The translations under genes were made by a program, and so were the position numbers. Positions 2,037 through 30,102 of a stretch of 64,000 bases of DNA are shown here, piece by piece (positions within the stretch are counted from its first letter, which is position 1; every line of letters begins with the position of its first letter). The stretch spans positions 434,001-498,000 of the forward strand of contig JAHBSZ010000002.1 in NCBI GenBank assembly GCA_019638845.1, read 5' to 3'. Source of the stretch: Salinibacterium sp. Lineage in GTDB: Bacteria; Actinomycetota; Actinomycetes; Actinomycetales; Microbacteriaceae. Under the pieces are notes generated by a model. That model worked only from the letters and a program-made list of their open reading frames with translations, did not search any database and was not told the origin of the DNA.

Positions 2037-2052
2037 GTCAACGCCCGTTGAT
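2037..2052. promoter_or_regulatory. Regional palindrome, site 1 (gabD-like/AraC divergent promoter)
   Basis: GTCAAC-GCCC-GTTGAT, half-sites GTCAAC facing GTTGAT with a 4-bp spacer. It overlaps a TTGATA (2048-2053) that can act as -35 for a TATGAT -10 at 2073-2078 reading towards the AraC gene, with a 19-bp spacer. It is one of seven related sites in the left half of the window. Confidence 0.55.
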
Positions 2053-2106
2053 AATCGTTCAAGGGCTGCTGCTATGATCCCAAATCACACGAGGAGGTGG
2101 TTGCTT

Positions 2107-3048
2107 ATGAGCGCACTGTCGATGTCCACGACGCAGAATTTCAGTCAATTCCGCACGGCAGTCTCAGAGTCGTTCGTTCCGCTGCAGGTAACAAGCGACA
2201 AGCCGCAGCCTTTTTACGGGCGTATCCGGATGGCAGCCGCCGACGAGGTACACGTTTCCGAGGTGAGCGCGGGCCGGCACGTCGTAGAGCGCACGCCCGA
2301 GCTGATCGCGCGCGGCGACCGGAAGTACTTCAAACTCAGCCTCATGCTCGCGGGAAATGGCCTTCTCGTGCAAGACAACCGCGAGGCACTTCTCCAGCCT
2401 GGCGACCTCGCGATCTACGACACCAATCGCCCGTACTCGCTGGTCTTCGATGACGATTTCCGCACGATGGTCGTCATGTTCCCGCAGCACCTGGTCGACC
2501 TGCCCCTCGAGGCAGTCGGCCAGCTCACTGCCGTTCGGATGTCGGGCCGAGAAGAGGGTCTCACCGGCATCATCGTTCCGTTCCTCGCCCAAATGGCCAA
2601 CAACCTCGAACAGGTCTCGGGCGCTCCCGGAGTACGACTCACCCGCAGCGCCATCGACTTGGTGACGACGGTTCTCGCCAACCAGCTCGATCTCGATCGG
2701 GGCACCGGTAACGGACACCGCGCACTCGCACATCGGGTGCGCCAGTTCATCGACACAAATCTCTCCTCCGTCGATCTTGGGCCGACACAGATCGCTGCCG
2801 CTCACTTCATCTCGACTCGTCACCTGCACAGCATCTTCCGGGAACAAGGCACGACGGTCTCGTCGTGGATCCGCGAACGCAGGCTCGACCGCTGCCGCCG
2901 GGACTTGCTCGACCTCGTGCACGCCGATCGTCCAGTCGCTACGATCGCGGCACGCTGGGGCTTCGTCGATGCCGCCCACTTCAGTCGGGTCTTCAAAGCG
3001 GCCTATGGCGTATCCCCGAGCGAGCTTCGAGCCCGCCGCACCAGTTGA
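2107..3048 (+). CDS. AraC-family transcriptional regulator (FeaR-like architecture)
   Basis: A 313-residue regulator. The N-terminal 180 residues or so look like the AraC-binding-like ligand domain found in FeaR-type activators. The C-terminal 100 residues carry a double helix-turn-helix (first helix pair around IAAAHFIS, second around VATIAARWGFVDAAHFSRVF) ending in the usual GVSPSELR. I chose the ATG at 2107 because a GAGGAGG ribosome site sits just upstream; a Met five codons later is the alternative. FeaR-type proteins activate amine oxidase and aldehyde dehydrogenase genes in enterobacteria. The amine oxidase and dehydrogenases here make a similar role plausible, but that is inference. 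Confidence 0.85.
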   Translation: MSALSMSTTQNFSQFRTAVSESFVPLQVTSDKPQPFYGRIRMAAADEVHVSEVSAGRHVVERTPELIARGDRKYFKLSLMLAGNGLLVQDNREALLQPGDLAIYDTNRPYSLVFDDDFRTMVVMFPQHLVDLPLEAVGQLTAVRMSGREEGLTGIIVPFLAQMANNLEQVSGAPGVRLTRSAIDLVTTVLANQLDLDRGTGNGHRALAHRVRQFIDTNLSSVDLGPTQIAAAHFISTRHLHSIFREQGTTVSSWIRERRLDRCRRDLLDLVHADRPVATIAARWGFVDAAHFSRVFKAAYGVSPSELRARRTS

Positions 3049-3108
3049 CGTTCGAGGAACGTCGATTGACGGGTAGCGAAGGAACACCGCCGCGGCCTTG
3101 AGCGCGGC

Positions 3109-4263
3109 ATGCCCGTCGCCAACGATTGGCGCATGCCCCACGCCGCGCTGCCCACCTCCAGCAGGCAGGTGCTCTTCTCCGCCCCTGACACCATCGAGCA
3201 CGCGGTCTCGGCTGTGGATGCCCCTGGTCCCGACGAGGCCATCGTGCGGATAGCCCTCGTCGGCATCTGCGCCACTGACCTGCACCTGCTTGCCGGCCAC
3301 ATCGGCGACCCGTTCCCGCTCGTGCCAGGGCACGAGTTCGTCGGCGCCATCGCGGCGATCGGGGATCGCGCATCGGCCGCACGTGGTCTTCACGTCGGTG
3401 ATCATGTCGCGGTAGAGATGCTCCTTCCGTGCCGGGCGTGCGCGCGCTGTCGGGAGGGGCGCTACAACCTCTGCGACGAGGATGACATGGCGCGCGGTCT
3501 CGCGCGCGGTCGGCAGTACGGCGTCAACATCCCGCGAACCGTGTCACCGGGCCTGTGGGGCGGCTATGCCGAATACCTGTTCGTCCCGGCCGAGGCGATC
3601 ACCCACAAACTTCCGTCGACCATGCCGTGGACTCGAGCCGTGCTCGCCGAGCCGCTCGCCGTCGCCAGTCGCGCGGTGGCGCGCGGGCGCGTGTCGCCAG
3701 GCGACACAGTCGTCGTGATCGGGCCCGGGCCCGTCGGAATTCTCACCGCTGCAGCCGCGCGAGCCGCTGGCGCGCGCAAAGTCATCATGGTCGGCACGCG
3801 TACGTCTCGGCTCGCGCTCTCCCTCTCGTTCGGCGCCGATGCGGCCGTCGACTCGCGTGACTGCGATCCCGTCGTCGGCGTCCGCGAGCTGATCGGTGGA
3901 CAGCTTGCGGACGTCGTCGTCGAGGTCGCTGGCGTTCCGGCAGCACAGCAGCAGGCGGTGAGTTTGGTGCGACGCGGCGGTCGGGTCGTGCTCGCCGGCG
4001 CGTGCGGAGCACACGCGGTGGTGTCGTTCCTCGCCGATGAAGACTTGCTCACGCGGGAGATCGACATTCTCCCGTCGTTTCTCTCATCGGGAGGCTTCGA
4101 GCCGGCGATTGCCCTGCTCGAACGCCATGACTTCCCGTTCGAGCAACTGGTAACGCACAGCTTCGCCTTCGAAGACGTCGATCTGGCATACGACCTGATC
4201 CGCTCTCGCTCCGACGACGTGCTCAAAGCTGTTCTCGACCCGAGCGCCGAGCGCTCCCGATGA
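3109..4263 (+). CDS. Zinc-dependent medium-chain alcohol dehydrogenase
   Basis: A 384-residue member of the zinc-containing medium-chain dehydrogenase family. Catalytic zinc ligands are visible at Cys54 (GICATD) and His75-Glu76 (PGHE). Structural zinc ligands are Cys108, Cys111, Cys114 and Cys122. The NAD(P)-binding Rossmann motif is GPGPVG. It should oxidise an alcohol to a ketone or aldehyde. Met9 (3133) is an alternative start, and family alignment of the N-terminus would favour it. Its stop overlaps the next gene, an SDR, by 4 bp, and five genes to 7219 run in one direction with little spacing, so they form one operon starting near the AraC gene. The substrate is unknown. Confidence 0.88.
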   Translation: MPVANDWRMPHAALPTSSRQVLFSAPDTIEHAVSAVDAPGPDEAIVRIALVGICATDLHLLAGHIGDPFPLVPGHEFVGAIAAIGDRASAARGLHVGDHVAVEMLLPCRACARCREGRYNLCDEDDMARGLARGRQYGVNIPRTVSPGLWGGYAEYLFVPAEAITHKLPSTMPWTRAVLAEPLAVASRAVARGRVSPGDTVVVIGPGPVGILTAAAARAAGARKVIMVGTRTSRLALSLSFGADAAVDSRDCDPVVGVRELIGGQLADVVVEVAGVPAAQQQAVSLVRRGGRVVLAGACGAHAVVSFLADEDLLTREIDILPSFLSSGGFEPAIALLERHDFPFEQLVTHSFAFEDVDLAYDLIRSRSDDVLKAVLDPSAERSR

Positions 4264-4979
4264 GCCGTTTCGAAGGGCGCGTGGCTGTGGTCACGGGCAC
4301 CACGAGCGGCATCGGGGCCGGGATCGCGTCGGCGCTCGAAGCTGAAGGAGCACGCATTTTCGGTCTCAACGTCGAGTCGGGCGGGGTCGGTGAGCACGTC
4401 GATTGCGATGTCAGGGATGCCGCATCGGTCGCCGCTGCGGCAGCTACCGTGCTGGCCGCGACCGGAGGCCGACTCGACCATGTTGTCGCCAACGCAGGAA
4501 TCCGCGGTTCTGACACTGCGGCGGAAGACCTCGCCGTCGAGGAGTGGGACGCCGTGCTGGGAGTGAATCTTCGTGGGGTCTTCCTCGCGATCCAAGCATT
4601 CGGTCGACCACTATTGGCCGCCGGGCGCGGCAGTATCGTCGCGATCGCATCGATGTCCGGCAACCGCGTCGTCAACGTCCCGCAGCGCACGGTGCCCTAC
4701 AACACGGCAAAAGCTGGGGTGACGGCGCTCGTGCGCAGCCTCGCCGTCGAGTGGGGACCGCGCGGGGTTCGGGTCAACTCGGTCTCACCCGGATACGTGT
4801 CCACTCCCCTGCTCGAGGCCGACTCAGCGCTACACGAGCAGTGGCTGCCGATGACCGTGCCCGGTCGATTCGCCTCGGTCGAGGACATCGCCGCTGGCGC
4901 TCTCTACTTGCTGTCGGATGATGCGGGGTCGTGCTTCGGCACCGATCTGCTCATCGACAGCGGCTACACCCTCCGCTGA
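4260..4979 (+). CDS. Short-chain dehydrogenase/reductase (SDR)
   Basis: A 239-residue classical SDR. It has the cofactor motif TGTTSGIG near the N-terminus, VANAGI in the core, a Ser-containing strand (SMSG), the active-site YNTAK and the usual PGYVSTPL after it. Such enzymes interconvert hydroxyl and carbonyl groups with NAD(P)(H). The ATG overlaps the previous stop by 4 bp, which argues for translational coupling with the zinc dehydrogenase; the two may act on successive hydroxyl groups of the same compound (inference). No unusual residue is seen in the catalytic set. Confidence 0.9.
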   Translation: MSRFEGRVAVVTGTTSGIGAGIASALEAEGARIFGLNVESGGVGEHVDCDVRDAASVAAAAATVLAATGGRLDHVVANAGIRGSDTAAEDLAVEEWDAVLGVNLRGVFLAIQAFGRPLLAAGRGSIVAIASMSGNRVVNVPQRTVPYNTAKAGVTALVRSLAVEWGPRGVRVNSVSPGYVSTPLLEADSALHEQWLPMTVPGRFASVEDIAAGALYLLSDDAGSCFGTDLLIDSGYTLR

Positions 4980-5002
4980 AGGATGCACCCAGAAAGGCAC
5001 CC

Positions 5003-5800
5003 ATGACTGACGACAACCGCCCTGACCCCGACGAGTGGCGCACCTACGACGAATTCGCCGCGGGAATCGATACTTACCGGCTTCCGAATGCCGATCTTGT
5101 CGGCACAGAGCTTGAGGTGACCCTCTCCGACGACACCCGGCTCACCCTGAACTTTGGCCACGATTCGGTCGAGTGGACGGCATCCGGAGCCCTCACGACC
5201 AACGCTGCGACACGCGACCCTTATGACGCCGTCGCCGTTCGTGACGGAGTGTTCTTCGTCACCATCCCGTTTGCCAGCCGCGAGCGCGAGTCACTCTCTC
5301 TCGTGCACTCTGTCCACACCCACCGCGCACTTGCCGTTCACTCGGTGATCGAAGACGAAGAGGCCGAGGGCACCCCTCGCGTACGACAGCGGTTCTGGTC
5401 GGGGACGACGATGGGGGACGCCTCCGGGATCGAGCCCGGGCCATCCCGCGACCTGATCGGCAAGCGGAACCTGTACCGCTACAGCCCCGAGCACCTGTAC
5501 GAGCACGTCTATGTGTCTTCCGAGCGCTACGCATGGCAGTGCCTCGAGGGCGTTCAACGCGGACATGGCGACATGGATTTGTCCACGGTCTGGAAGTTCG
5601 ACGACGGCCTCTACCTGTTCTGCTTCCGCGAATTCCGCATCGCCGTAGCAAGCGTGTGGTTGCACGACCTGGGCTACCAGCTCATGACCACCGGGGTCTT
5701 CCTCGGCCTCAATGGCGACGGCAACTCCGAACACTCGCGCGCTGGTGGCCACATCTATCCCCTTGGCTCGGTCGCCTACCCCGACGCCCAACCCGTCTAA
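5003..5800 (+). CDS. MoaF-family protein
   Basis: A 265-residue protein resembling the two-part MoaF family, named from a gene in the Klebsiella monoamine regulon. Recognisable pieces are the central RFWSGTTMG segment, the YSPEHLYEHVYVS stretch, the LEGVQRG loop and the FCFREFRIAVAS strand. The pattern suggests a beta-barrel (calycin-like) fold. Although the family name refers to molybdenum cofactor biosynthesis, no molybdopterin gene is visible in the window. The amine oxidase 8 kb away fits the Klebsiella context better. The ATG at 5003 follows an AGAAAGG ribosome site. The biochemical role is unknown; a ligand-binding or ring-modifying role is a guess. Confidence 0.75.
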   Translation: MTDDNRPDPDEWRTYDEFAAGIDTYRLPNADLVGTELEVTLSDDTRLTLNFGHDSVEWTASGALTTNAATRDPYDAVAVRDGVFFVTIPFASRERESLSLVHSVHTHRALAVHSVIEDEEAEGTPRVRQRFWSGTTMGDASGIEPGPSRDLIGKRNLYRYSPEHLYEHVYVSSERYAWQCLEGVQRGHGDMDLSTVWKFDDGLYLFCFREFRIAVASVWLHDLGYQLMTTGVFLGLNGDGNSEHSRAGGHIYPLGSVAYPDAQPV

Positions 5801-5819
5801 GCAGAGAGAGACCCACACG

Positions 5820-6215
5820 ATGAGCACGAACCTGGACATCATCAAAGCCCACTACGCGGCAAGTGATCGCGGTGACCTCGAAGGCATGCTTGCTCCTCTC
5901 GCGGACGACGCGAGCTGGACCGAGATGGCGGGCTTCCCTTATGCCGGCACGTACATCGGTCCGGACGCCGTCCGCGACGGGGTATTCATCCGGATCGCCT
6001 CGGAATGGGATGGCTACACAGCGACCATCAACGAACTTGTGGATGGCGGCGACACCATCGTCGGTCTGGGCCTCTACGCGGGAACCCACAAATCGACGGG
6101 CGAGCACTTCACCGCGCGTGTTGCGCATGTCTGGCACTTGGCCGGCGGCAAAGTCGTTTCGTTCGAACAGTTCACCGACACGCTGCTCGTCGCTCGAGCT
6201 ACCGGGTCGTTCTGA
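5820..6215 (+). CDS. SnoaL-like / NTF2-fold protein
   Basis: A 131-residue single-domain protein of the SnoaL-like, NTF2-fold superfamily. The N-terminal helix (IIKAHYAASDRGDLEGMLAPLADD) followed by a WTEMAGFPYAGTYIG strand, and the closing HVWHLAGGKVVSFEQFTDT, are typical. Family members are isomerases, dehydratases, cyclases or non-enzymatic binders, and the fold alone does not tell which. It lies in an operon, 19 bp after the MoaF-like gene, and its stop overlaps the start of the aldo/keto reductase gene (TGATG). The ATG at 5820 is the only reasonable start. It may catalyse a ring isomerisation or dehydration in this pathway (inference). Confidence 0.85.
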   Translation: MSTNLDIIKAHYAASDRGDLEGMLAPLADDASWTEMAGFPYAGTYIGPDAVRDGVFIRIASEWDGYTATINELVDGGDTIVGLGLYAGTHKSTGEHFTARVAHVWHLAGGKVVSFEQFTDTLLVARATGSF

Positions 6216-7219
6216 TGTCGGTCCCCACGCGCGCAAGCGGGCCGTCGGGTACTCCGGTTTCCGCCCTCGCTCTGGGCTCGTGGCACACCTGGGATCGGCT
6301 CGCTCCGAGCGAGACTGCTGAGACCTTGACGACCGCCATCGAGCACGGGATCAACCTGTTCGACGTTGGCATCTACAGTCCCCAGCGCAAAGGTGCTACC
6401 GATGTGCTCTTTGCCGAGGGGATGCACCGAGCCGGCATAGCCCGAGATCGCTACCGCCTCGCAGTCAAGGGCTGGTTGCCGCACGACGCCGACGAACTAC
6501 CCAACCTGCTGCCTCAGGTGGACGAACTGCTCGACCGGCAGAACACGGATCGCGCCGACTTCCTCGTGTTGGGCGACCTCATGCACGGCATCACGTTCCG
6601 TGATGAGCTCCTGAAACAATTGGAATCGCTGATCGCCTCCGGGAAGGTAGCGAACTGGGCAGTCAACAACTGGTCGGCCGACGACATCTTTTCCTTCACC
6701 CGTTCGGCTGTCGAAGCTGGGCTCCCCCGCCCCGAGTACGCTCAGCTCAAGTACGGTCCGGCGCGACGTTCCGTCGCCGAGAGCGATCTGCTGCGCTCCC
6801 TGGGTGTGTCGATCGGGCTCACGATTCAGGCGTCGGACACGTTCGAAGGCGGTCTGCTGCTCGGCAGTCAGGCTGGTCGCATGATCGGCGGCGATCTCGG
6901 GGGGATCCAGGCCAGCATCCGGGCATCCGTCACGCTGCTGCGCGAAGTTGCGGCAGAGCTGGGGGGAACCGCCGCGCAACTCGCCATCGCAGTACCGCTA
7001 TGCAACCCGCAGGTGAGCAGCGTTCTGGTGGGGGCGCGGACTCAGGAACAGGTCCTCGACAACATCGGGGCCTTTGCCCTCATCGAGCGTGTGGGAGTCG
7101 AGGGCATCCGTCGAGCAGCCCACGAATTCTGGTTCGACAAGGGGATCGTCGACCCCGCCTCGTCGTGGGGAATACGACCGGATGACGATCCGCACAGCTA
7201 CACCGTGAGCGAGCGTTGA
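6215..7219 (+). CDS. Aldo/keto reductase, first paralogue, catalytic His missing
   Basis: A 334-residue aldo/keto reductase with a TIM-barrel pattern. Asp50 (LFDVG), Tyr54 and Lys85 (AVKGW) correspond to three members of the usual Asp-Tyr-Lys-His tetrad. At the position of the fourth, normally in a DLLLLH-type strand, the sequence reads FLVLGD with Gly120. It shares the blocks LGSWHTWDR, QLKYGPARRSVAE and QASDTFEGG with the protein at 25.5-26.5 kb, so the two are paralogues. The ATG overlaps the preceding stop, and this is the last gene of the operon. It could be a reductase with altered chemistry, or use another histidine (His124 is close). Confidence 0.85.
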   Translation: MSVPTRASGPSGTPVSALALGSWHTWDRLAPSETAETLTTAIEHGINLFDVGIYSPQRKGATDVLFAEGMHRAGIARDRYRLAVKGWLPHDADELPNLLPQVDELLDRQNTDRADFLVLGDLMHGITFRDELLKQLESLIASGKVANWAVNNWSADDIFSFTRSAVEAGLPRPEYAQLKYGPARRSVAESDLLRSLGVSIGLTIQASDTFEGGLLLGSQAGRMIGGDLGGIQASIRASVTLLREVAAELGGTAAQLAIAVPLCNPQVSSVLVGARTQEQVLDNIGAFALIERVGVEGIRRAAHEFWFDKGIVDPASSWGIRPDDDPHSYTVSER

Positions 7220-7332
7220 GACCCCGCCTACATCGTCAAGTGGCGTGCTCAGAGGGACAACAGCGGTCCCGCACCCCCGACCTAGCCTTCAACACATGGG
7301 CCGACGGTCCATCCGCTCCCCGAGGCGGCAGG

Positions 7333-7359
7333 AGTGTCAGACACAGCAGTCATGACACT
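7333..7359. promoter_or_regulatory. Inverted repeat upstream of the accessory branched-chain-type importer
   Basis: AGTGTCA and TGACACT, a perfect 7-bp inverted repeat with a 13-bp spacer, end 19 bp before the ATG at 7379. It differs from the 16-bp regional palindrome, so this importer operon may answer to another regulator. I found no second copy. Confidence 0.35.
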
Positions 7360-7378
7360 GTTCAGGAGGCAGGAATCA

Positions 7379-8563
7379 ATGAAGAAACACCTGTTGGGAG
7401 TCGCGGCGCTCAGCGCAGCGAGCATCCTCGTTCTTTCCGGTTGTACCGGTACCGGGTCCGGTGACAACGGCGACGCAAGCCCCATTGTCGTCGGGTCAGT
7501 TAACGCGCTGAGCGGCGCTGCCGCATTCCCCGAGGCCTCGCAGGCGGCGCAGGCCGTGTTCGACGCGGTCAACGCCGAGGGCGGCATCAATGGTCACCTG
7601 ATCGACTACAAGATCCTCGACGACAAGGGTGACCCGGCCGCCGCCGCTGCCGCCGCTCGCGAGGTCGTGAGCTCCGACAACGCGGTAGCGCTCGTCGGTT
7701 CCGCGAGTCTTCTCGAGTGCGAGATCAACGGCGACTACTACGTTCAGCAAGACATCCTGTCGATCCCCGGCGTCGGTGTCGACCCGGTGTGCTTCGCGAA
7801 CGCGAACATCTCGCCGGCCAACGTCGGCCCGTTCCTCGACATGACGCTCTCACTGCTGTACGGCTCAGAAGTGCTGCATCTCGACAACATCTGCGCGATG
7901 CTCGAGATCGCAGGTAGCACGCTGCCCGCGTATCAGGCAGCCATCGACAAGTGGACCGAGATCACGGGCAAAAAGCTCATCTACGTCGATGCGACTGTTC
8001 CCTATGGAGCAGCCGACTACACGCCGTACATCGTCGCTCTGAAGGAGCACGGCTGCCAGGCCGTCACCGTCAACCCGGTTGAGCCCGACTCGATCGGTCA
8101 GCTCAAGGCGGCACAGGCTCAGGGTCTTACCGATGTCACGTGGCTACTTCTCACGAGCGTCTACAGCGAGAACTTCGCTGCAGCGATCTCGGATGCTGGT
8201 GCCGGCATCTACGTCCCAGCAGAGTTCTACCCCTTCACCGACGCGGCGAGCCCGCAGACGAAGGACTGGCGCACGCTCATGGAGGCGAACAACATCCCGT
8301 TGACCTCGTTCAGCCAGGGTGGCTTCCTCGCGGCGACGTACTTCATCGATGTGCTCAAGACGATCAAGGGTGACATCACCCGCGAGTCGGTCTCCGAGGC
8401 GCTACGCACCATGGACCCGATCGAAAGCCCGATGGCAGGTAGCCCCTACATCTTCGGCGACGCGGCCACCCACAACAGCAACACCTCTGGCTTCCCAGTG
8501 AAGCTGCTGAGCGGCACCAATCAGTGGGAACTCGCCGCCGAGGACTGGCTGACGATCCCGTAG
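7379..8563 (+). CDS. ABC transporter solute-binding lipoprotein, branched-chain amino acid type
   Basis: A 394-residue lipoprotein. A short basic N-terminus and hydrophobic stretch end in the lipobox LSGC with Cys22 as lipidation site. The mature part follows the Leu/Ile/Val-binding family (periplasmic-binding type 6): SVNALSGAAAFPE near the start and GGINGHLIDYKILDDKGDP after it. The ATG at 7379 was chosen because AGGAGG lies 7-12 bp upstream and the signal peptide starts there. It opens a four-gene importer operon to 11933. Members of this family bind amino acids, amides, urea and many aromatic acids, so the ligand here is open. Cys residues at about 119, 142, 171 and 230 are unusual for a Liv-type binder. 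Confidence 0.88.
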   Translation: MKKHLLGVAALSAASILVLSGCTGTGSGDNGDASPIVVGSVNALSGAAAFPEASQAAQAVFDAVNAEGGINGHLIDYKILDDKGDPAAAAAAAREVVSSDNAVALVGSASLLECEINGDYYVQQDILSIPGVGVDPVCFANANISPANVGPFLDMTLSLLYGSEVLHLDNICAMLEIAGSTLPAYQAAIDKWTEITGKKLIYVDATVPYGAADYTPYIVALKEHGCQAVTVNPVEPDSIGQLKAAQAQGLTDVTWLLLTSVYSENFAAAISDAGAGIYVPAEFYPFTDAASPQTKDWRTLMEANNIPLTSFSQGGFLAATYFIDVLKTIKGDITRESVSEALRTMDPIESPMAGSPYIFGDAATHNSNTSGFPVKLLSGTNQWELAAEDWLTIP

Positions 8564-8582
8564 TAGTCCGGAACACCCCACT

Positions 8583-8618
8583 CTGCGGCGGCGCCAGCGA
8601 GCACTCGCGCCGCCGCAG
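8583..8618 (+). terminator. Intercistronic hairpin after the solute-binding gene
   Basis: A perfect 12-bp GC-rich stem (CTGCGGCGGCGC with GCGCCGCCGCAG) and a 12-base loop lie between the binding-protein stop and the first permease start. There is no T-run. It probably attenuates or protects the upstream message so that more binding protein than permease is made. Confidence 0.55.
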
Positions 8619-8645
8619 TCCACCCCCACCGAATCGGAGTTACCA

Positions 8646-9506
8646 GTGCTTCAGGGCGCGCTATCCGGCCTCGCGGCCGGCGGGGTCTACGCGATTATCG
8701 CCGTCTGCCTCACTCTTATGTCCCGCCTCGTGCGGGTCGTCAATTTCGCTCAGGCGGCTACCGGCATGTTCGGCAGCTACGTCGCGGTCTGGATGGTCAG
8801 CAAAGCAGGCATCCCCATCGGCCTTGCGACAGTCGTCGGAATTCTCATCGGCGGGCTGCTCAGCGGTCTCATCGGTTGGATTATCGCCACGTGGCTCTCC
8901 GAAGCCGATACCAGCACGCGGTCAGCCGTCACAGTTGGGCCGTTGCTGCTGCTCATCTCTCTCTCGTTCATCCTGTTCGGTAACAAGCCTCAACCATTCC
9001 AGCCCCTCCTTGCCGGACCAGCGTTCACGGTCAGTGGAGTCGTCATCAGCCAGGTGACCGTTGTCATCGTGGTACTCGCGATCGTTGTTGCGGCCGCATC
9101 GAAACTCGTGCTGTCACGCACGTCCGTCGGCACCAAGTTGCGGGCCCTCTCGGAGCGTCCGACAACAGCTGAACTCATTGGCATCCCCGCCAAACCCCTC
9201 GGTGTTGCTGTGTGGGCGATCACGGGAATCATCTCGACCATCGTCATCGTCATCGTGGCCCCATCGCAGTCCAACGACGCGATCGCGCTCTCCATGCTCA
9301 TCGTCCCCGGCGCCGCGGCAGCTTTGCTCGGCGCTTTCCGTCGCCTCGACCTCGCCGTCCTCGGCGGACTCGTGCTCGGCGTCATCCAAGGCACTGTCGC
9401 CCAGATCGATCAGGTCTCGTTCGTGCGTTATTTCCTCCCCTTCCTCTTTATTGTCGGACTCTTGCTCTGGAACCAGCGAAAGGCGGTATGGGATGCCGCG
9501 CGCTAG
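8646..9506 (+). CDS. ABC importer permease, LivH type
   Basis: A 286-residue integral membrane protein with about eight hydrophobic segments. It begins with the hallmark GLAAGGVYAIIAVCLTL of LivH-type permeases and has the coupling-helix region RALSERPTTAELIGI near residue 175. A GTG start at 8646 fits the family N-terminus and follows a GGAG site. It forms half of the membrane channel for the solute delivered by the lipoprotein at 7.4 kb. Its 3' end overlaps the next gene by 14 bp. Confidence 0.88.
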   Translation: MLQGALSGLAAGGVYAIIAVCLTLMSRLVRVVNFAQAATGMFGSYVAVWMVSKAGIPIGLATVVGILIGGLLSGLIGWIIATWLSEADTSTRSAVTVGPLLLLISLSFILFGNKPQPFQPLLAGPAFTVSGVVISQVTVVIVVLAIVVAAASKLVLSRTSVGTKLRALSERPTTAELIGIPAKPLGVAVWAITGIISTIVIVIVAPSQSNDAIALSMLIVPGAAAALLGAFRRLDLAVLGGLVLGVIQGTVAQIDQVSFVRYFLPFLFIVGLLLWNQRKAVWDAAR

Positions 9507-11933: not shown

Positions 11934-11942
11934 CCGCTGGCG

Positions 11943-12761: not shown

Positions 12762-12791
12762 GTGTGTTCCTTTATCTTTGGGGTCCGCGAT

Positions 12792-13538: not shown

Positions 13539-13660
13539 GACGTCCAGCTTCGCGGTAGGGCGGGGCTGCCGATTGCCGATCACTGCAGGGTATTTGTCCG
13601 GCGCCGCACGGAGACCAGCGGTCGCACATTGTCGGCAACGCGCGGGCGGAGACTGGTCGG

Positions 13661-18883: not shown

Positions 18884-18899
18884 CTCTACAGTTGTTGAC
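18884..18899. promoter_or_regulatory. Regional palindrome, site 3 (methyltransferase-like gene)
   Basis: CTCTAC-AGTT-GTTGAC. Read on the minus strand it runs into TAGAGT, a possible -10 for the methyltransferase-like gene 37 bp downstream. One outer base differs from the consensus. Confidence 0.5.
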
Positions 18900-18961: not shown

Positions 18962-18977
18962 GTCAACGAATGTAGAA
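18962..18977. promoter_or_regulatory. Regional palindrome, site 4 (peptide-type importer)
   Basis: GTCAAC-GAAT-GTAGAA. The right half-site coincides with TAGAAT at 18973-18978, a good -10 for the importer operon starting at 19071. Binding here would block RNA polymerase directly. Confidence 0.55.
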
Positions 18978-20942: not shown

Positions 20943-20970
20943 CCGCACACCTAAGAGAACCGAGGATCAC

Positions 20971-22605: not shown

Positions 22606-22624
22606 CTTCCGCATCCGACTCATC

Positions 22625-22656
22625 GGTGGGGTGGCTCACATTCGGGCCACCCCACC
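22625..22656 (+). terminator. Intercistronic hairpin after the peptide-type binding gene
   Basis: A perfect 11-bp stem, GGTGGGGTGGC with GCCACCCCACC, and a 10-base loop lie between the binding-protein stop and the DppB-type start. No T-run follows. It occupies the same place as the hairpin in the other importer operon and probably sets a higher level of binding protein. Confidence 0.55.
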
Positions 22657-22674
22657 CCAACAGAAAGTCAACCC

Positions 22675-23619
22675 GTGCTCGGCATCATCTTGCGCAGACT
22701 GGTGAACCTCGTCATCATCCTGTTCGTCGTCGGAACCCTGCTCTTCTTCATCATCAGGGCGATTCCCGGGGACCCCGCAATTGCCTTGCTCGGGTCCACC
22801 GCTAAGCCGGAAGAGCTCGAGGCGCTTCGTCAGGACCTCGGCATCAGCGGGCCCCTCTACCTCCAATATCTGGGTTGGTTCGGCCGAGTTCTGCAGGGTG
22901 ACTTCGGGATGTCGATCATCTACGACAAGCCCGTCCTCGATGTCATTGCCGACCACATCGCCCCTACCCTGACGATCGCCATCATCAGCACTCTGCTGAG
23001 CTTCTTGCTCGCCGTGCTCATCACGGTGTGGAATGCTTCGAGCCCGCGCAACTGGGTAGCGCGAGCACTCAACCAGCTGTCGCAGATCGGTCTGGCCCTT
23101 CCCGACTTTTGGCTCGCGGTGCTGCTTATCTACCTGATCGCGCTCAACCTGCGATGGGTGCCGACCAGTGGCTATACCGACATCTGGGTGGACCCGATCG
23201 CGTCGATCCGCACTCTGCTCCTCCCGGTTGCCGTTCTGGTAATCGGTCAGGGGGCGAGCTTCGTGATCGTGCTCCGCGAGGGCATGCTCGGACAGATGTC
23301 GCAGCTGTACTTGCGAACCGCGCGCGTCAAGGGGCTCAGCGAGTTCGCCGTAGCCATGCGACATGCCCTGCCGAACGCGCTGTTGCCCATCCTCACCATT
23401 GTCGGGCTCAACTTCGCCGGCCTCGTCGGCGGCATCGTCATCCTCGAGAACATTTTCGTGATCCCCGGGCTCGGTTCCATGATGTTGGGCGCCATCAACG
23501 GTCGTGATTTTCTTCTCCTTCAGGGTGGCGCGCTGTTCATCGCCGTCCTCTTCGTCACGGTGAACCTCATCACCGATCTCACCTACGCCCTCGTCGACCC
23601 GAAGGTCCGTGTTTCATGA
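22675..23619 (+). CDS. ABC importer permease, DppB type
   Basis: A 314-residue permease with six membrane segments. It opens with the LRRLVNLVIILFVV start of the DppB group, has AIPGDPA after the first segment, and the coupling loop LYLRTARVKGLSE near residue 220. A GTG start at 22675 matches the family N-terminus; the ribosome site is weak (AGAAAG). It overlaps the DppC-type gene by 4 bp. Confidence 0.92.
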   Translation: MLGIILRRLVNLVIILFVVGTLLFFIIRAIPGDPAIALLGSTAKPEELEALRQDLGISGPLYLQYLGWFGRVLQGDFGMSIIYDKPVLDVIADHIAPTLTIAIISTLLSFLLAVLITVWNASSPRNWVARALNQLSQIGLALPDFWLAVLLIYLIALNLRWVPTSGYTDIWVDPIASIRTLLLPVAVLVIGQGASFVIVLREGMLGQMSQLYLRTARVKGLSEFAVAMRHALPNALLPILTIVGLNFAGLVGGIVILENIFVIPGLGSMMLGAINGRDFLLLQGGALFIAVLFVTVNLITDLTYALVDPKVRVS

Positions 23620-24497
23620 CCGCCTTTCTCGCCTTCGCTCGACGCAACCCTGCCGTCGTTGTGCCCGCAGGCCTTCTGCTGGTGATCGTGTTCATCACTC
23701 TGATCGGGCCGTTCTTCCTCGCCTCCCCCACCGCGACTGATCCGATCAACCGGCTGCAACCCCCGGGCGGTTCGCACCTGCTTGGCACCGACACCTACGG
23801 TCGGGATGTGCTCTCCCGGCTGGTGACCGGAGGGCGGGCATCCCTCGGTATGGCCCTTCTGATCACCGTGTGTTCGGGCGCCATCGGCACCTTCCTCGGG
23901 CTCGTCAGCGGGTACTTCATTAGGGCCGGAAATGTGATTATGCGGGTGACCGATGCGTGGATGGCGTTCCCCGCCATCGTGTTGGCAATGGTCTTCAGCG
24001 TCACTCTCGGACCGGGCGTTCTCACCGAGGTACTGGCGATCGGGATCATCTTCATCCCGTTCTCTGCGCGAGTGTTGCGCAGTCGCACGATGGAGATCAC
24101 GAGCCGCACTTTCGTCGAGGCCGCGCGCGTCTCGGGCATGGGACCGTGGAAGATCCTTGCCGTGCACGTGCTCCCCAATGTCGTGCCGCTCATCATCGTC
24201 CAGACGATCGTGTACATTGCCGCGACAATGCTCATCGACGGGGTGCTGAGCTTTCTCGGGCTGGGCATCGCGGCTCCCGCACCGAGCTGGGGAAACATGA
24301 TCGCGGAAGGTCGCAACTACATGTCGATCGCGCCGTACCTCATGGTGTTCCCGGGCCTCGTGCTCGCCGTCACCGTGTTCCTGGTCAACATGCTCGGCAC
24401 GAATCTGCGACCCGTGTTCGACCCGCAAGCTCGCCAACTGCAGGCTCTGCAACGCCTCCGCACACACGGCAACCCGTTCCGCCGCCCGAAGGGATAG
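23616..24497 (+). CDS. ABC importer permease, DppC type
   Basis: A 293-residue partner permease. After an N-terminal membrane segment comes the HLLGTDTYGRDVLSRL motif typical of DppC, then the coupling region FVEAARVSGMGPWKIL and FLGLGIAAPAPSWGNM near the C-terminus. The ATGA overlap with the DppB-type gene shows coupled translation. The following hydrolase gene begins 2 bp after its stop. Confidence 0.93.
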   Translation: MTAFLAFARRNPAVVVPAGLLLVIVFITLIGPFFLASPTATDPINRLQPPGGSHLLGTDTYGRDVLSRLVTGGRASLGMALLITVCSGAIGTFLGLVSGYFIRAGNVIMRVTDAWMAFPAIVLAMVFSVTLGPGVLTEVLAIGIIFIPFSARVLRSRTMEITSRTFVEAARVSGMGPWKILAVHVLPNVVPLIIVQTIVYIAATMLIDGVLSFLGLGIAAPAPSWGNMIAEGRNYMSIAPYLMVFPGLVLAVTVFLVNMLGTNLRPVFDPQARQLQALQRLRTHGNPFRRPKG

Positions 24498-24499
24498 CA

Positions 24500-25207
24500 G
24501 TGCCCACACTCGTCTACCTGGAGACCCAGCCGCGCGGCGCCCACTCGGGCCCGCCCGTCCTCCTCATCCACGGATTCGCCTCAGACTCCTCCGACTGGAC
24601 AGGCTGGCCGGATGCCCTCGCCGCCGCTGGCCGCGGCAGCATCCTCGTCGACCTTCCTGGCCACGGAAGGACCCCCGCCCCCGACTCGCTCGACGACGCC
24701 AGCACCACCCACATCGTGGATGCCCTCGCCACCGTCGTGCACGAGCATCCGGCGATCGACGTCGTCGCGTACTCACTCGGCGCGCGGCTCGCGTGGGAGC
24801 TCCCGGCCATCGCCCCTGTGCGCCGCCTCGTGCTTGGCGGCCTCAGCCCGGTGGAACCGTTCGGCGCCCTTGACTTCGCGCAGGTCGAGGCCTTCGTAGC
24901 CCACGGCGTTGCCCCGACCGACGGCCTGACGAGCATGCTCATGGGCATGATCTCTGCTCCGGGCAAGGATGCCTCGGCTCTCGCGCTCGTGATGCAGGGC
25001 TTGGCCACCGAACCATTCGCTCCTGTTGATGGGCCGGCCGTGCCGACGCTGTTCGTCTCCGGCGACGGCGACCCGATGGCTGCCGGGGTCGACGCACTGG
25101 TGGCGATCACACCGGGCGCACAGCGGGTTACCGTGCCGGGTGACCATCTGGGGGCGCTTCGCTCAACGGAGTTCCGTGCGGCAGCATTAGGTTTCCTGGG
25201 GATCTGA
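24500..25207 (+). CDS. Alpha/beta-fold hydrolase
   Basis: A 235-residue alpha/beta hydrolase. The oxyanion-hole segment is IHGFASDSSDW, the nucleophile Ser92 lies in AYSLG (Ala instead of the usual first Gly), and Asp (SGDGDPMA) and His (PGDHLGA) complete the triad. It is close to the small hydrolases of the MenH or ring-cleavage-product type. The GTG start lies 2 bp after the DppC-type stop, and a long upstream in-frame extension inside the permease gene is not coding. As last gene of the importer operon it probably hydrolyses an ester, thioester or C-C bond in the imported compound. Confidence 0.87.
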   Translation: MPTLVYLETQPRGAHSGPPVLLIHGFASDSSDWTGWPDALAAAGRGSILVDLPGHGRTPAPDSLDDASTTHIVDALATVVHEHPAIDVVAYSLGARLAWELPAIAPVRRLVLGGLSPVEPFGALDFAQVEAFVAHGVAPTDGLTSMLMGMISAPGKDASALALVMQGLATEPFAPVDGPAVPTLFVSGDGDPMAAGVDALVAITPGAQRVTVPGDHLGALRSTEFRAAALGFLGI

Positions 25208-25548: not shown

Positions 25549-26529
25549 TCATGCCGCGGGGAACGTCCACCTGCCGTCAGGGTTCACCCGGTCGCGATCG
25601 ATCCAGAGGTGGTCTACCGCCTCGCGGATCTCTGCACCGTGCCGCGCGTAGAGCTCGAGCGCGCCGAGGTTTTCATCAAGTTGCTCCATGCGACTCACTC
25701 CGAACAGCACGTTCGCGACGGCAGGGTTGGTGAGACAGAAGGCGATCCCGAGCTGGGCAGGTGTCGCCCCGAACTCCCCCGCCACCCGCACGACCTCATC
25801 GGCTGCTTCGCGGATGAGCTCACGAATACCACCGGGATCCGCCCCTATCTGGCGCACAGTGTTTTTCTTGCCGGCGAGAACCCCTCCCTCGAACGTGTCA
25901 GAGGCCTGCAGCGCGAGCTGTCCGCTGCGGAACAGAGCGCCATAGAAGGGTCCCTCGGCAACGGTGCGGCGGGCGATCCCGTACTTCAGCTGCACGAAGG
26001 TGGGTAGTGGCAGTCCTTCCGCGGCGGCGAAGTCACGCGCTGCCAGGAAGTCGGCAATCGGCCAATTGTTGGTGCCCCAGGACCCGAGACGGCCGGCAGC
26101 CACTTGCTCGGCGACATCCGTGACGACCGCAGGAATGTCGATCGTCGCATAGTCCCCGATCACGGCGGTGTCGGCCTTCTCAATCCCGACACGGTCGAGC
26201 GATTCCACGAGCTGGCTCGTGAAGTTCTGTTTCGGGTAGTCCCACAGCCAAAGCTTGCCGCTGAACACGTATTCCTCGCGAGCGATTCCCGCTTCACGCA
26301 TAGCGCGCGACCAGATGAGGTCGGTCGGCGAATCGTCGGGGTGTGGGCCCATGTTGTAGTAGGCGACATCAAACAACGTCACGCCAGCGTCGACTGCGCG
26401 GCGCACAAGTGCCACAGCCTCATCGAAGGTCATCCGATCCCACGTGTGCCATGAGCCGAGACCAAGCGTCGACACCGTCGGTCCGGTCGGTCCGAGTGGG
26501 CGGGACTGGGCAGGTTGTTCGGTCGCCAT
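25549..26529 (-). CDS. Aldo/keto reductase, second paralogue, catalytic His missing
   Basis: A 326-residue aldo/keto reductase, clearly paralogous to the protein at 6.2-7.2 kb (shared LGSWHTWDR, QLKYGIARRTVAE, LQASDTFEGG). Asp54, Tyr58 and Lys92 of the catalytic set are present. The position of the catalytic His again holds Gly125 in AVIGDY, so the substitution is shared and old. The ATG at 26529 follows AAGGAG. A longer frame would start 25 codons upstream in the divergent promoter and is unlikely. It diverges from an SDR gene, with a copy of the regional palindrome between them. Confidence 0.87.
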   Translation of the reverse strand: MATEQPAQSRPLGPTGPTVSTLGLGSWHTWDRMTFDEAVALVRRAVDAGVTLFDVAYYNMGPHPDDSPTDLIWSRAMREAGIAREEYVFSGKLWLWDYPKQNFTSQLVESLDRVGIEKADTAVIGDYATIDIPAVVTDVAEQVAAGRLGSWGTNNWPIADFLAARDFAAAEGLPLPTFVQLKYGIARRTVAEGPFYGALFRSGQLALQASDTFEGGVLAGKKNTVRQIGADPGGIRELIREAADEVVRVAGEFGATPAQLGIAFCLTNPAVANVLFGVSRMEQLDENLGALELYARHGAEIREAVDHLWIDRDRVNPDGRWTFPAA

Positions 26530-26555: not shown

Positions 26556-26571
26556 GTCTACGCTTGTATAA
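26556..26571. promoter_or_regulatory. Regional palindrome, site 7 (aldo/keto reductase and SDR promoter)
   Basis: GTCTAC-GCTT-GTATAA. The left half-site is perfect. The right half has become part of a perfect TATAAT -10 at 26567-26572 for the SDR gene at 26607. It is the weakest of the seven by symmetry, but is identical to site 6 over its first 11 bases. Confidence 0.45.
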
Positions 26572-26606: not shown

Positions 26607-27329
26607 ATGAGCAGGACTGTCCTCGTCACCGGTGGCGCGAGCGGGATCGGCAAGGGCATCGCCCGAGCGTTTGTCGCGAACGGCGACCGGGTGGTGATTG
26701 CTGACATTGACGGGGAATCCGGCGCTGCGGCATCCGTCGAGCTGGGGTGCGACGCGGTGCAGGTCGACATCGCCGACGCGCATTCAGTCGCGGACGCCGT
26801 CGAGCGAGTGGGATCCATCGATGTGCTCGTCAACAACGCGGGATTGATCGCGATCGGCGGGCTTCTCGTCGACCTCACTCCCGACGACTTCGACCGGGTG
26901 GTTCACGTCAACTTTCGCGGCACGTTCCTGATGACGCAGGCGGTTGCCCGGCAGATGATCGGCGGCGGAGTGGCCGGCGCCATCGTCAATGTGACGTCCA
27001 TTGGCGCTCGCCAGCCGACCCGAGCACTCGGCGCCTATGAGGCGACCAAGGCTGCGGTGGAAGCACTCACCCGATCAGCAGCGCTCGAGTTTGCGCAGCA
27101 CGGTATTCGAGTCAACGCCGTGGCGCCCGGGCCCGTGCTCACCGAGATGCTCCGAGGCGCGATGCCCGAGGGTTCTCCCGCGCGCACCGCGTGGCAGGCG
27201 CGAATTCCCCTCGGTCGGATGGCGGAGGTTGACGACGTCGCACCCGTCACGGTCTTCCTTGCTAGCCCGGGAGCGCAGCACATCACCGGGGCGAGCGTCC
27301 AGATTGATGGCGGGCAGTTGCTGACCTAG
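26607..27329 (+). CDS. Short-chain dehydrogenase/reductase (SDR)
   Basis: A 240-residue classical SDR with TGGASGIG, an acidic NAD-type strand end (IADIDGE), NNAGL, catalytic TSIGA, YEATK and APGPVLTEM. The ATG follows AAAGGA. Its promoter contains a perfect TATAAT overlapped by the regional palindrome. The 3' end overlaps that of the convergent amidohydrolase gene by 4 bp. It is the fourth SDR of the region and, like the others, has no identifiable substrate. Confidence 0.9.
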   Translation: MSRTVLVTGGASGIGKGIARAFVANGDRVVIADIDGESGAAASVELGCDAVQVDIADAHSVADAVERVGSIDVLVNNAGLIAIGGLLVDLTPDDFDRVVHVNFRGTFLMTQAVARQMIGGGVAGAIVNVTSIGARQPTRALGAYEATKAAVEALTRSAALEFAQHGIRVNAVAPGPVLTEMLRGAMPEGSPARTAWQARIPLGRMAEVDDVAPVTVFLASPGAQHITGASVQIDGGQLLT

Positions 27330-28690
27330 CTTCGTTCGAACACCACCCGCCCACCAGCGACGGTCACGTCCACGGTGACACCAGGTAGTTCCGCTGGCGT
27401 GACCTCAAGCGGGTTGCGGGCCAGCACGCACAGGTCGGCAACCTTGCCCACAGTGAGAGTGCCCTTCCAGCTCTCCGCGCGATCCTGCCAAGCCGGATTC
27501 ACCGTATACGTCTTGAGCAGAGTGAGCATGGTCTGGCGCGGGTCGCCAAGACTTCCCTCCCCGGCCCAGGCTGCTGCTGCCGCTATCCCGATTCGCCAAT
27601 CCGGAGTGAGCACCGGGGCGTCAGAACTCAAGCACAACGGGATTCCAGCAGCGAGAGCATCCGGAATCGGCCACGCGTTCAGTGCAACCTGGGGCCCGAG
27701 AGTGGCGGCGAGCATGGCTGAGGTGGCCGGAGCGATTCCGGCCTGGGTGTTGAGGCCGATTCCCAGCGCCGCCATTCGATCGAGTGTGGACCGGCCCACC
27801 AGATCACCATGAATGATGTAGTGGCGAAGGTCAGACCCATCGAGGGACTCGACGATCTCGACCACGGCATCGATCGACTTGTCGCCGGTCGCGTGCACGC
27901 CCACCTGATAGCCGAGTTCGTGCGCAAGGGTGATCATCGCCCGCATGTTCTCGGCACGATCGGACTCATCTATGCCCTCCACCAAGAGCGTGCCGTGCGT
28001 GCCGTCGAGGTAGTGCCCATGGATCCAGGCAGAACGCATGGGCGGGATGCCGTCGGCGAACACCTTGATGCCGCCAATGCGGAACCACTCTGAATCGGGG
28101 TCGTCATCGGCGAGATCGTGAATCCCGCGTTCGAAATCGTCAATGGTGCTGGGTCCATCGAGCTCGCCGAACAACATGAGCACGGTGACGCGTGCGCGCA
28201 GGAGCCCTTCCGCCGCGAGCGCGCGATACTGCTCAAGTACGTCGGAGCCGCACGCGCCCGTCGCCCCGTCGTCCTCCCCCGGGCCAAGTCCGGGTTCGGT
28301 ATAGCTCGTGATCCCGAGGGACGCCGCGATGTCTCCTGCCCGGAGAATCGCCGCACGGCGCTCGGCCGAGCTCTCCAGCGTCGTGGATTGCGCAAAACCC
28401 GAGCCGCCCGCGAGACCGTCCATGATCGTCGCCGGCCAGATGGCGCCCAGCCATGTCGCGTGCATGTGCGATTCGTTGATGCCGGGGATGACCGCCCGCC
28501 CGGCGAGATCGATGTGGCGGGAGGCATCCGTAACCAGTGCGATAGCCCCGTCGTCGTCCCCGACATAGACGATTCGACCACCACGAGTCGCGATCGCAGT
28601 GGCTTCCGAATTCCGCTCGTCGAGCGTGAGGACGAGACCGCCGGTGAGGATCAGGTCGGCGTTCAACTGGTTCGGTGGCATCGGTGGCAC
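27326..28690 (-). CDS. YtcJ-like metal-dependent amidohydrolase, second copy
   Basis: A 454-residue amidohydrolase, about 95 residues shorter than the one at 15.6 kb and only distantly similar. Metal and catalytic elements are present: PGINESHMH, the IKVFADGIPP lysine, VGVHATGDK, YIIHGDLV and LSSDAPVLTPDW. A Met three codons downstream is an alternative start. It diverges from the zinc dehydrogenase gene, with palindrome site 5 between them, and so belongs to the same putative regulon. It probably opens a ring or removes an acyl group by hydrolysis of a C-N bond (inference). Confidence 0.87.
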   Translation of the reverse strand: MPPMPPNQLNADLILTGGLVLTLDERNSEATAIATRGGRIVYVGDDDGAIALVTDASRHIDLAGRAVIPGINESHMHATWLGAIWPATIMDGLAGGSGFAQSTTLESSAERRAAILRAGDIAASLGITSYTEPGLGPGEDDGATGACGSDVLEQYRALAAEGLLRARVTVLMLFGELDGPSTIDDFERGIHDLADDDPDSEWFRIGGIKVFADGIPPMRSAWIHGHYLDGTHGTLLVEGIDESDRAENMRAMITLAHELGYQVGVHATGDKSIDAVVEIVESLDGSDLRHYIIHGDLVGRSTLDRMAALGIGLNTQAGIAPATSAMLAATLGPQVALNAWPIPDALAAGIPLCLSSDAPVLTPDWRIGIAAAAAWAGEGSLGDPRQTMLTLLKTYTVNPAWQDRAESWKGTLTVGKVADLCVLARNPLEVTPAELPGVTVDVTVAGGRVVFERS

Positions 28691-28720: not shown

Positions 28721-28736
28721 GTCAACGTATGTAGAA
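28721..28736. promoter_or_regulatory. Regional palindrome, site 5 (amidohydrolase/zinc dehydrogenase promoter)
   Basis: GTCAAC-GTAT-GTAGAA, nearly identical to site 4. The right half coincides with TAGAAT (28732-28737), a -10 candidate for the zinc dehydrogenase gene at 28783. Confidence 0.55.
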
Positions 28737-28782
28737 TATCCAAAAACTGCGCCACCGCCAGACCCAGACCCAAGGAGCCACG

Positions 28783-29889
28783 ATGATGTCGCCCACCAGC
28801 ACTCGAGCCGCCGTGCTTACTGAGCACGGAACTGAACTCACCCTCCAGACCCTTCCGCTACCCACCGCAGTCGAGGCGGGTGCCGCACTGGTTCGGCTCA
28901 CCTGCACGACGCTGTGCGGCACGGACATCGAGATCTGGAATGGCACGATGTCATTTCCTGGAATGGTGCCGATGGTGCTCGGTCACGAGATGGTCGGCGA
29001 AGTCGTCGCAGTCGGCGCCGGCACCGTCGACGCACTCGGTCGCGACATCGAGATCGGAGCCAGAATCGGCTGGTCAGAGCGAACCTGCGGCCACTGCTAC
29101 GGATGCACGATCCTGCGTGAACCCGTGGCCTGCAGCACGCGTGGCTACGGGTTCACGCAGCGCTCGGATGTTGCCCCCTTCGCGATTGGCGGCCTCTCCG
29201 AGTACTGCTACGTGACTCCGGGTGCCGCAAAACTGCTGCTCCCCGACGACATCAAGGACACCTGGGCGTCAATGGCGGGGTGCGCCGCAAAAACGGTTCT
29301 TCGTGCCTTCTCCCGAGTTGGTGGCATCCGGCCAGCGTCTCGGGTGGTTATCCAAGGTGCGGGCGCACTCGGCATCTTCGCCACCGCGGTAGCGCACATT
29401 TCCGGCGCAGCGCAGGTCATCACCGTCGGCGCACCGGACTCACGACTTGAGACCGCGCGTCGGTTCGGTGCGGATGCCACGGTGAACGTCACCCGCGGAT
29501 CGGAGGGCATCGTCGCCGATGTGATGACACTCACGGGTGGCCGCGGCGCCGACCACGTGTTTGACTTCGCCGGCGCATCAAGTGTGGGCGCAGAAGCCAT
29601 CGGTATGGCCGCCCAACGAGCCACGTTCGCTGTCGTCGGCAGCACCGGTTGGGGACTGAGCGAGATACCGCTCAGCGCCGTCATGGGCAAGGAGCTCACC
29701 ATCGCCGGCTCTCTCAACGGCGACATCTCGGACTACTTCCGGGCCATCGAGTTCTTCCAGGCGTTCGCCGACCGGATGCCCTGGGACGAGCTCTTTTCAG
29801 AACCGGTCGGCCTCTCCGGCGCCACCGAGTGCATCCGCAGGATGGCCGATCTCGGCCAGATCAAGGCCGTCATCGACCCCCGCCTCTGA
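28783..29889 (+). CDS. Zinc-dependent medium-chain dehydrogenase, second copy
   Basis: A 368-residue zinc-type medium-chain dehydrogenase. The catalytic zinc ligands are Cys45 (LCGTD) and His68-Glu69 (GHE), the structural ones Cys102, Cys105, Cys108 and Cys117. The nucleotide-binding loop is GAGALG. It is only distantly similar to the enzyme at 3.1 kb. The ATG follows an AAGGAG site. It is a single-gene unit: a GC-rich hairpin follows, then a long promoter region. It probably oxidises a secondary or primary alcohol of the pathway. Confidence 0.9.
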   Translation: MMSPTSTRAAVLTEHGTELTLQTLPLPTAVEAGAALVRLTCTTLCGTDIEIWNGTMSFPGMVPMVLGHEMVGEVVAVGAGTVDALGRDIEIGARIGWSERTCGHCYGCTILREPVACSTRGYGFTQRSDVAPFAIGGLSEYCYVTPGAAKLLLPDDIKDTWASMAGCAAKTVLRAFSRVGGIRPASRVVIQGAGALGIFATAVAHISGAAQVITVGAPDSRLETARRFGADATVNVTRGSEGIVADVMTLTGGRGADHVFDFAGASSVGAEAIGMAAQRATFAVVGSTGWGLSEIPLSAVMGKELTIAGSLNGDISDYFRAIEFFQAFADRMPWDELFSEPVGLSGATECIRRMADLGQIKAVIDPRL

Positions 29890-29963
29890 TGTCAGATCCG
29901 TCGGCGACGCTGGGCTGCGCGAACAGTACTGCGCTGCAGGCGTGATCGGCACATCGGGATCAA

Positions 29964-29989
29964 GCGGCCCAATACAAGTTCGGGGCCGC
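29964..29989 (+). terminator. Possible terminator after the second zinc dehydrogenase
   Basis: GCGGCCC and GGGCCGC form a 7-bp GC stem with a 12-base loop, 75 bp after the stop. No T-run follows, so this is a weak terminator call. Confidence 0.4.
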
Positions 29990-30062
29990 CCGGACCGATT
30001 GTGATGAGCAAGGAACTCGCTCACCAGGCACGGCCGGGACGACCCCTGGTCTTTCCACCAAC

Positions 30063-30083
30063 CTGTGGACCATTCTTCCACAG
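30063..30083. promoter_or_regulatory. Second inverted repeat in the aldehyde dehydrogenase promoter
   Basis: CTGTGGA and TCCACAG are perfect 7-bp arms with a 7-bp spacer, ending 3 bp before palindrome site 6. The arrangement suggests a second regulator acting next to the first. No other copy was noticed. Confidence 0.4.
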
Positions 30084-30086
30084 TGT

Positions 30087-30102
30087 GTCTACGCTTGTTG
30101 AC
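30087..30102. promoter_or_regulatory. Regional palindrome, site 6 (aldehyde dehydrogenase promoter)
   Basis: GTCTAC-GCTT-GTTGAC, the most symmetrical copy. It contains a perfect TTGACA at 30098-30103. A TATGAC at 30119-30124 would be a -10 at a short 15-bp spacing. Confidence 0.6.

Follow-up and report, generated by a model that had tools for sequence, protein, structure and literature searches.

Which protein acts on a palindrome that recurs across about 30 kb of catabolic genes in Salinibacterium sp., and which of these genes does it control? The locus lies in a 64,000-nt stretch of contig JAHBSZ010000002.1 (assembly GCA_019638845.1, positions 434,001 to 498,000; hereafter the window). A sequence-only reading had placed 16-bp palindromes of the form GTCWAC-N4-GTWGAC in intergenic positions starting at 2037, 17218, 18884, 18962, 26556, 28721 and 30087, and had proposed that one TetR-family protein represses through all of them. 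All seven 16-mers were found at these places, each between genes, and the 17218 copy ends 31 bp before the start of the TetR gene (17265–17852), the sole TetR gene found in the 30-kb region. Judged from the DNA, the seven palindromes are very probably operators of this TetR protein, which would repress until a metabolite releases it.

The copies share a consensus close to YTCWACRNNYGTWGAR, with looser outer bases. A symmetric matrix built from the seven returned the same seven at ranks 1 to 7 in the window, the weakest scoring 17.4 bits versus 9.7 bits for the eighth-ranked place (30375), and each site, when omitted, ranked seventh or better with the matrix of the other six. All seven are intergenic, yet intergenic DNA, with gene starts set by hand, makes up only 2165 of the 28265 bases (7.7%) between 2000 and 30264. 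When one mismatch to GTCWACN4GTWGAC was allowed, the window held six matches versus 0.28 expected, a count reached in none of 100 shuffles; with up to two mismatches, the eight matches did not differ significantly from the 5.3 expected, and 21 of 100 shuffles reached that number.

The last count is a point for regarding the seven as chance matches, or as sites of a general regulator that happen to be dense here, and so are a few good matches outside the cluster in the organism's own genome (G000, 2.96 Mb in 13 contigs, searched by pattern), at C1:238042 (19.6 bits) and C7:127092 (17.1 bits). In that genome the strict core TCWACRNNYGTWGA, which fits five of the seven sites, occurs five times, always in the cluster, versus none for the reversed pattern, and a laxer core, TCHACRNNYGTDGA, occurs at ten places, five of them in the cluster, versus three in the control. 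Allowing up to one mismatch to GTCWACN4GTWGAC gives 19 places, six in the cluster and 13 elsewhere; since the reversed control gives 12, the 13 are close to background. Apart from the two high-scoring places just named, equally good sites scattered through the genome, which the sequence-only reading had named as evidence against itself, did not emerge from these pattern searches, which stop short of a full matrix scan.

The site and the TetR gene also occur together across the family. TetR homologs (E ≤ 1e-30) are present in 21 of 398 family genomes, its own included; those in two further genomes of the genus (27 searched, own included) are 81% and 84% identical, the others 33–56%. Searches of 16 hand-picked TetR-positive genomes gave 59 strict-core places versus nine in the reversed control; 48 of the 59 lie at most 28 kb from the TetR gene or, in G024, on the contig that carries the rest of the cluster, and the remaining 11 are about background. 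Among 16 likewise hand-picked genomes of the family that have no homolog at this E-value, the count is 15 versus 22 in the control. The matrix found 63 sites in 24 cluster loci and one in the same sequences reversed, a fairer control than the 31 control loci (no site in 101 kb), which omit four own-genome stretches fetched by pattern (L002, L004, L005 and L013), two of them holding the 19.6- and 17.1-bit sites. A 15-base word from the AmH2/ADH2 operator, TTCTACATACGTTGA, is found once each in nine of the 398 genomes, and all nine are TetR-positive. A site of at least 15.5 bits lies within 150 bp upstream of nine of 26 TetR homologs, versus none within 200 bp of 14 unrelated TetR genes (highest score 7.1 bits; 14 of the 26 loci L034–L059, with starts taken from partial matches).

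Conservation in near relatives points the same way. All seven sites are in place in G007, and six were seen on the fetched contigs of G024, the ALDH1/AraC region lying outside those contigs. In two- or three-way alignments, identical columns within the sites number 15/16, 16/16, 31/32, 16/16, 16/16 and 11/16, versus 62/76, 22/48, 100/194, 40/71, 31/76 and 85/271 outside them in the same order, where uneven ends and gaps score as differences. The first of these is weak evidence, since conservation there extends almost equally into the flanks; in the last, that of the 30087 site, the half-sites are kept and the spacer has changed. At the 30087 place G007 has no ALDH2 gene, and the operator is kept both there and in the window. 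Its counterpart in G024 lies between divergent genes for ALDH2 and an alpha/beta hydrolase, the latter with no match in the window at E ≤ 1e-3. Chance or a general regulator is disfavoured by the genome counts (the strict core five out of five times inside the cluster) and by the lack of any excess in TetR-negative genomes, and also by the leave-one-out ranks and the conservation across genera; we regard it as scarcely credible.

Which genes belong to the regulon was read from a scan of the 300 bp before orthologs in 17 genomes at a threshold of 15.5 bits, where n is the number of genomes with a gene start and sufficient upstream DNA (Table 1). The comparison of promoters in orthologous clusters, suggested by the sequence-only reading, showed the same palindrome before the same genes in other genera. 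The thirteenth genome for AKR2 and SDR4 has a site of 13.3 bits, and an importer operon whose binding protein is 27–29% identical to that of the window has the operator upstream in nine of nine genomes. For the TetR gene itself, whose G007 start falls at the end of the stretch, the G007 site was seen in a separate comparison of TetR upstream regions. No site at threshold precedes CuAO (0/11), LivK, LivH or LivF (0/7 each), MoaF (0/6), ADH1 (0/4), SDR1 or AKR1 (0/2 each), SDR3 (0/7) or the isochorismatase gene (0/3), and sites are rare before SDR2 and AraC (1/7 each) and AmH1. Since these counts split the genes, we distinguish the TetR regulon from a second, amine-oxidase/Liv/MoaF module. The earlier claim that the sites serve nearly every unit of the region was right about its three exceptions (the branched-chain-type importer, the SDR pair and the amine oxidase) but overstated, as ADH1-SDR1-MoaF-AKR1 and AmH1 also have no site of their own. 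Likewise, a single TetR regulon is supported by the co-occurrence, the shared promoters and the background level elsewhere, but it is narrower than proposed, lying mainly in the 17.2–30.1 kb half.

Table 1. Palindromes, proposed regulators and genes in the window (fractions: orthologs with an upstream site of at least 15.5 bits)
Feature	Positions	Strand	Context or assignment	Sequence	Relatives
Operator	2037..2052	.	Between divergent ALDH1 (-) and AraC gene (+)	GTCAACGCCCGTTGAT	One base changed in G007
Operator	17218..17233	.	Before TetR	GTCTACACTGGTGGAC	G007 and G024 copies identical
Operator	18884..18899	.	Methyltransferase (-) side of divergent promoter region	CTCTACAGTTGTTGAC	
Operator	18962..18977	.	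Peptide-type importer (+) side; overlaps TAGAAT	GTCAACGAATGTAGAA	
Operator	26556..26571	.	Between divergent AKR2 (-) and SDR4 (+); overlaps TATAAT	GTCTACGCTTGTATAA	
Operator	28721..28736	.	Between divergent AmH2 (-) and ADH2 (+); overlaps TAGAAT	GTCAACGTATGTAGAA	
Operator	30087..30102	.	Before ALDH2	GTCTACGCTTGTTGAC	
ALDH1	540..2015	-	Aldehyde dehydrogenase; site 21 bp upstream		1/3; G007 14.1 bits
AraC	2107..3048	+	AraC-family regulator, FeaR-like; Pfam AraC_binding_2 and HTH_18		
Second module	3109..17213	.	ADH1, SDR1, MoaF, AKR1, LivKHMGF importer, SDR2/SDR3 (-), CuAO, AmH1		
CuAO	13661-15586		Copper amine oxidase; NCBIfam PRK11504, 837.8 bits (cut-off 651)		
AmH1	15567-17213				1/10
TetR	17265..17852	+	TetR-family regulator, proposed binder, 195 aa; Pfam TetR_N and TetR_C_6		7/16
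OMT	17849..18847	-	Methyltransferase (Methyltransf_2 and dimerisation domain)		13/16
Importer region	19071..25207	+	Peptide/opine-type ATP-binding cassette (ABC) importer genes and alpha/beta hydrolase		
Importer ATPase	19071-20942	+	OppDF		3/3
Importer binding protein	20971-22605	+			
Importer permeases	22675-24497	+			
Alpha/beta hydrolase	from ~24503	+			9/15
AKR2	25549..26529	-	Aldo-keto reductase		12/13
SDR4	26607..27329	+	Short-chain dehydrogenase		12/13
AmH2	27326..28690	-	Amidohydro_3 family hydrolase		13/13
ADH2	28783..29889	+	Zinc alcohol dehydrogenase		11/12
ALDH2	30265..31710	+	Aldehyde dehydrogenase		2/2

Co-occurrence and conservation alone do not name the protein that binds the palindromes, and another one could do so, either the FeaR-like AraC protein or a regulator encoded elsewhere. 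The AraC gene, which the sequence-only reading did not list, directly adjoins the 2037 site, and AraC genes are found in the loci of several TetR-positive genomes. However, the genes that neighbour AraC stand in relatives without sites (LivK, MoaF and ADH1 never, AraC itself once in seven genomes), the palindrome precedes the TetR-linked genes, and on plasmid pTC2 (see below) a site lies between TetR and amine oxidase genes with no AraC annotated in 24.6 kb, although that gene table may be incomplete. Because the AraC-linked genes in relatives have no sites, we consider the AraC protein disfavoured and any such other binder unlikely.

The TetR protein thus remains the preferred binder, and the position of its putative operators suggests how it would act. 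The right half-site coincides with TAGAAT at 18962 and 28721 and with TATAAT at 26556, as had been read from the window. The −35-like hexamers also noted there, TTGATA at 2037 and TTGACA at 30087, are present, but the nearest −10-like hexamers, located by eye, are 19 nt (TATGAT) and 15 nt (TATGAC) away, and a strict scan of three stretches gave no promoter. Among 75 sites from 27 loci (L063, L097 and L102–L108 omitted; a few probably chance, such as L114:5779 inside a Liv gene), 55 show TANNNT when a half-site is read together with one flanking base, and in the AKR2/SDR4 promoter the half-site, read by eye, is TATAA in 11 of 13 genomes. Such an overlap would be the look expected of a repressor that covers the −10 element. 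A minority of TetR-family proteins activate, and the TetR protein might bind the palindromes with an activating or mixed effect, as the 2037 and 30087 sites, which contain a −35-like hexamer and not a −10, could suggest; the TANNNT count, however, places the half-site where a blocking repressor would be expected, and we hold such an effect to be highly improbable. From the protein family and the −10-like overlap, we infer repression and relief: at the methyltransferase, importer, AKR2/SDR4 and AmH2/ADH2 promoters, TetR dimers would probably cover the −10 element, and for TetR itself (autoregulated here), ALDH2 and ALDH1/AraC they would probably bind at the promoter or close to it. Bound TetR would exclude RNA polymerase until released by a small molecule, which is most likely either the substrate taken up by the importer or an intermediate of the pathway.

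Several observations weigh against repression by TetR through these sites. The own genome has the two high-scoring matches outside the cluster, and no promoter came out of a strict sigma-70 scan of three stretches, which between them contain five of the seven sites. The exact word TTCTACATACGTTGA, which was picked after the loci had been inspected, is missing from 12 of the 21 TetR-positive genomes. Because 17 of the 26 TetR homologs have no 15.5-bit site within 150 bp upstream (seven have one of 9.7–11.7 bits, one of 15.3), autoregulation by the operator is not universal; in G250, G188, G280 and G073 there is no site of at least 8 bits within 150 bp of TetR. In G045 a 47% homolog lacks both the cluster and a nearby site, and in Arthrobacter sp. 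ERGS1:01 a homolog lies beside an amine oxidase gene without a site (best in the locus 9.9 bits). G280 has no strict-core site; its cluster nevertheless holds sites of 16–17 bits.

The protein itself belongs to the TetR family (TetR_N 48.6 bits, cut-off 24; TetR_C_6 34.6 bits, cut-off 27), and its helix-turn-helix hardly varies among homologs with as little as about 35% identity; the two unrelated TetR proteins aligned have a different one. It scores far below the NCBIfam cut-offs for KstR (NF033703, 39.8 versus 280 bits) and for the choline repressor BetI (TIGR03384, 42.7 versus 201.3 bits). KstR and KstR2 of actinobacterial steroid catabolism are the general model of TetR-family repressors with several operators; the present case resembles them in the TetR_N domain and in short palindromic operators repeated at the promoters of one catabolic region, but differs in the KstR score, the operator and the genes. 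The nearest solved sequences, matched over most of the TetR length, are 2nx4 (E 9.9e-25) and 2gfn (E 3.5e-19), whose titles refer to a TetR family protein and a pksA-related protein and name no target or ligand; we know of no operator for either, and the literature matches listed contain nothing on this regulator. Outside the family, a 55% homolog lies on a contig labelled Pseudomonadota in a metagenome-assembled genome (L016), and the homologs in plasmid records are all below 60% identity. A protein search across the order (E ≤ 1e-45) returned the own genome alone out of 396, which says little about other families because the sample includes genomes of the same family.

A distant homolog, 36.5% identical to the TetR protein, is encoded on plasmid pTC2 of Paenarthrobacter aurescens TC1 (CP000476.1). 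Its gene and that of a copper amine oxidase point away from each other, and the gap between them holds TTCTATACTTGTAGAT followed by AAT (15.9 bits). This pair shares with the window the TetR homolog, the amine oxidase and, nearby, an amidohydrolase gene, but the gene set is small, and no copy of the OMT/AKR2/SDR4/AmH2/ADH2 module can be made out in the annotated stretch. G335 has the order CuAO, TetR, AraC, with TTCTATAGTTGTAGAA (16.4 bits) between the first two; in G104 and G217, of the same genus, the matches are weaker, at 10.1 bits. An association of long standing between amine oxidase and this line of TetR proteins is likely, though not a uniform one.

For the second module the FeaR-like AraC protein is the likelier regulator; its gene is part of the module in several genomes. 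That protein reaches 160.8 bits with the FeaR model (NCBIfam NF007243, cut-off 199) and can be called FeaR-like only. E. coli FeaR, TynA and FeaB serve aromatic amine oxidation; the island shares with them an AraC_binding_2 regulator and genes for a copper amine oxidase and aldehyde dehydrogenases, but FeaR membership falls short and a TetR regulon stands alongside. The closest PDB relatives of the CuAO are phenylethylamine oxidase chains. Only the 2037 operator connects the two halves, and it would tie the modules together in this genus. Only one close relative, G007 (14.1 bits), allowed a comparison; G089 has ALDH1 and AraC apart from each other, and no such site accompanies either gene.

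Judged from the enzymes encoded (amine oxidase, amidohydrolases, hydrolases, dehydrogenases and methyltransferase), the substrate may be an organic compound derived from an amine. A route through an N-substituted formamide deformylase (Amidohydro_3) and amine oxidase was considered; the papers listed contain nothing on it, and no PDB or NCBIfam match fixes the substrate. In a tentative picture, somewhat less likely than not, the locus would be a catabolic island with two regulators, in which an old TetR/amine-oxidase switch was redirected to a separate set of dehydrogenase, hydrolase and methyltransferase genes, its half-site doubling as a −10; since the same operator precedes unrelated peptide-type importers in different genera, operators would have been gained more than once. 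The substrate of such an island would probably be an undescribed, amine-derived compound.

Other features were seen in the related loci. Phosphotriesterase-family genes lie between TetR and the methyltransferase in other genera (L090:10638-11714, L091:7721-9903), a hint of lactone-like intermediates. In L063 (G019:C78, 10881-11560) 38 residues that match the TetR C-terminal end at 66% identity are encoded beside an isochorismatase gene that is 86% identical to the one at 31711 in the window; with no other TetR-regulon gene in 20 kb, this looks like a relic of a lost cluster. As for single matches outside clusters, that at C1:238042 (L064:5043) is inside a mechanical open reading frame, that at C7:127092 (L065:5093) is 9 bp before one, and a 20.3-bit site in G007 (C2:2505969; L119:4969) is far from the cluster at the end of a long reading frame, with no window gene near. 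Four genomes hold paired GTCAAC-N4-GTTGAC-like palindromes 28–29 bp apart, start to start (L066:5096/5124, L060:190/219, L063:15787/15815 and L101:1882/1910), the last three within about 2 kb of a gene matching an ABC ATPase (27–33% to LivF); they are probably the site of another regulator with a similar half-site.

Systems in which one TetR repressor has several operators within a single catabolic island are of a known kind; the operator, the content of the regulon and the boundary between the two modules seem to be new here. With them, an uncharacterised TetR subfamily gains a defined operator and a list of conserved genes, by which both regulator and pathway become testable. The genes of the 30-kb island are sorted between this switch and a probable second regulator, and the search for the substrate is narrowed.

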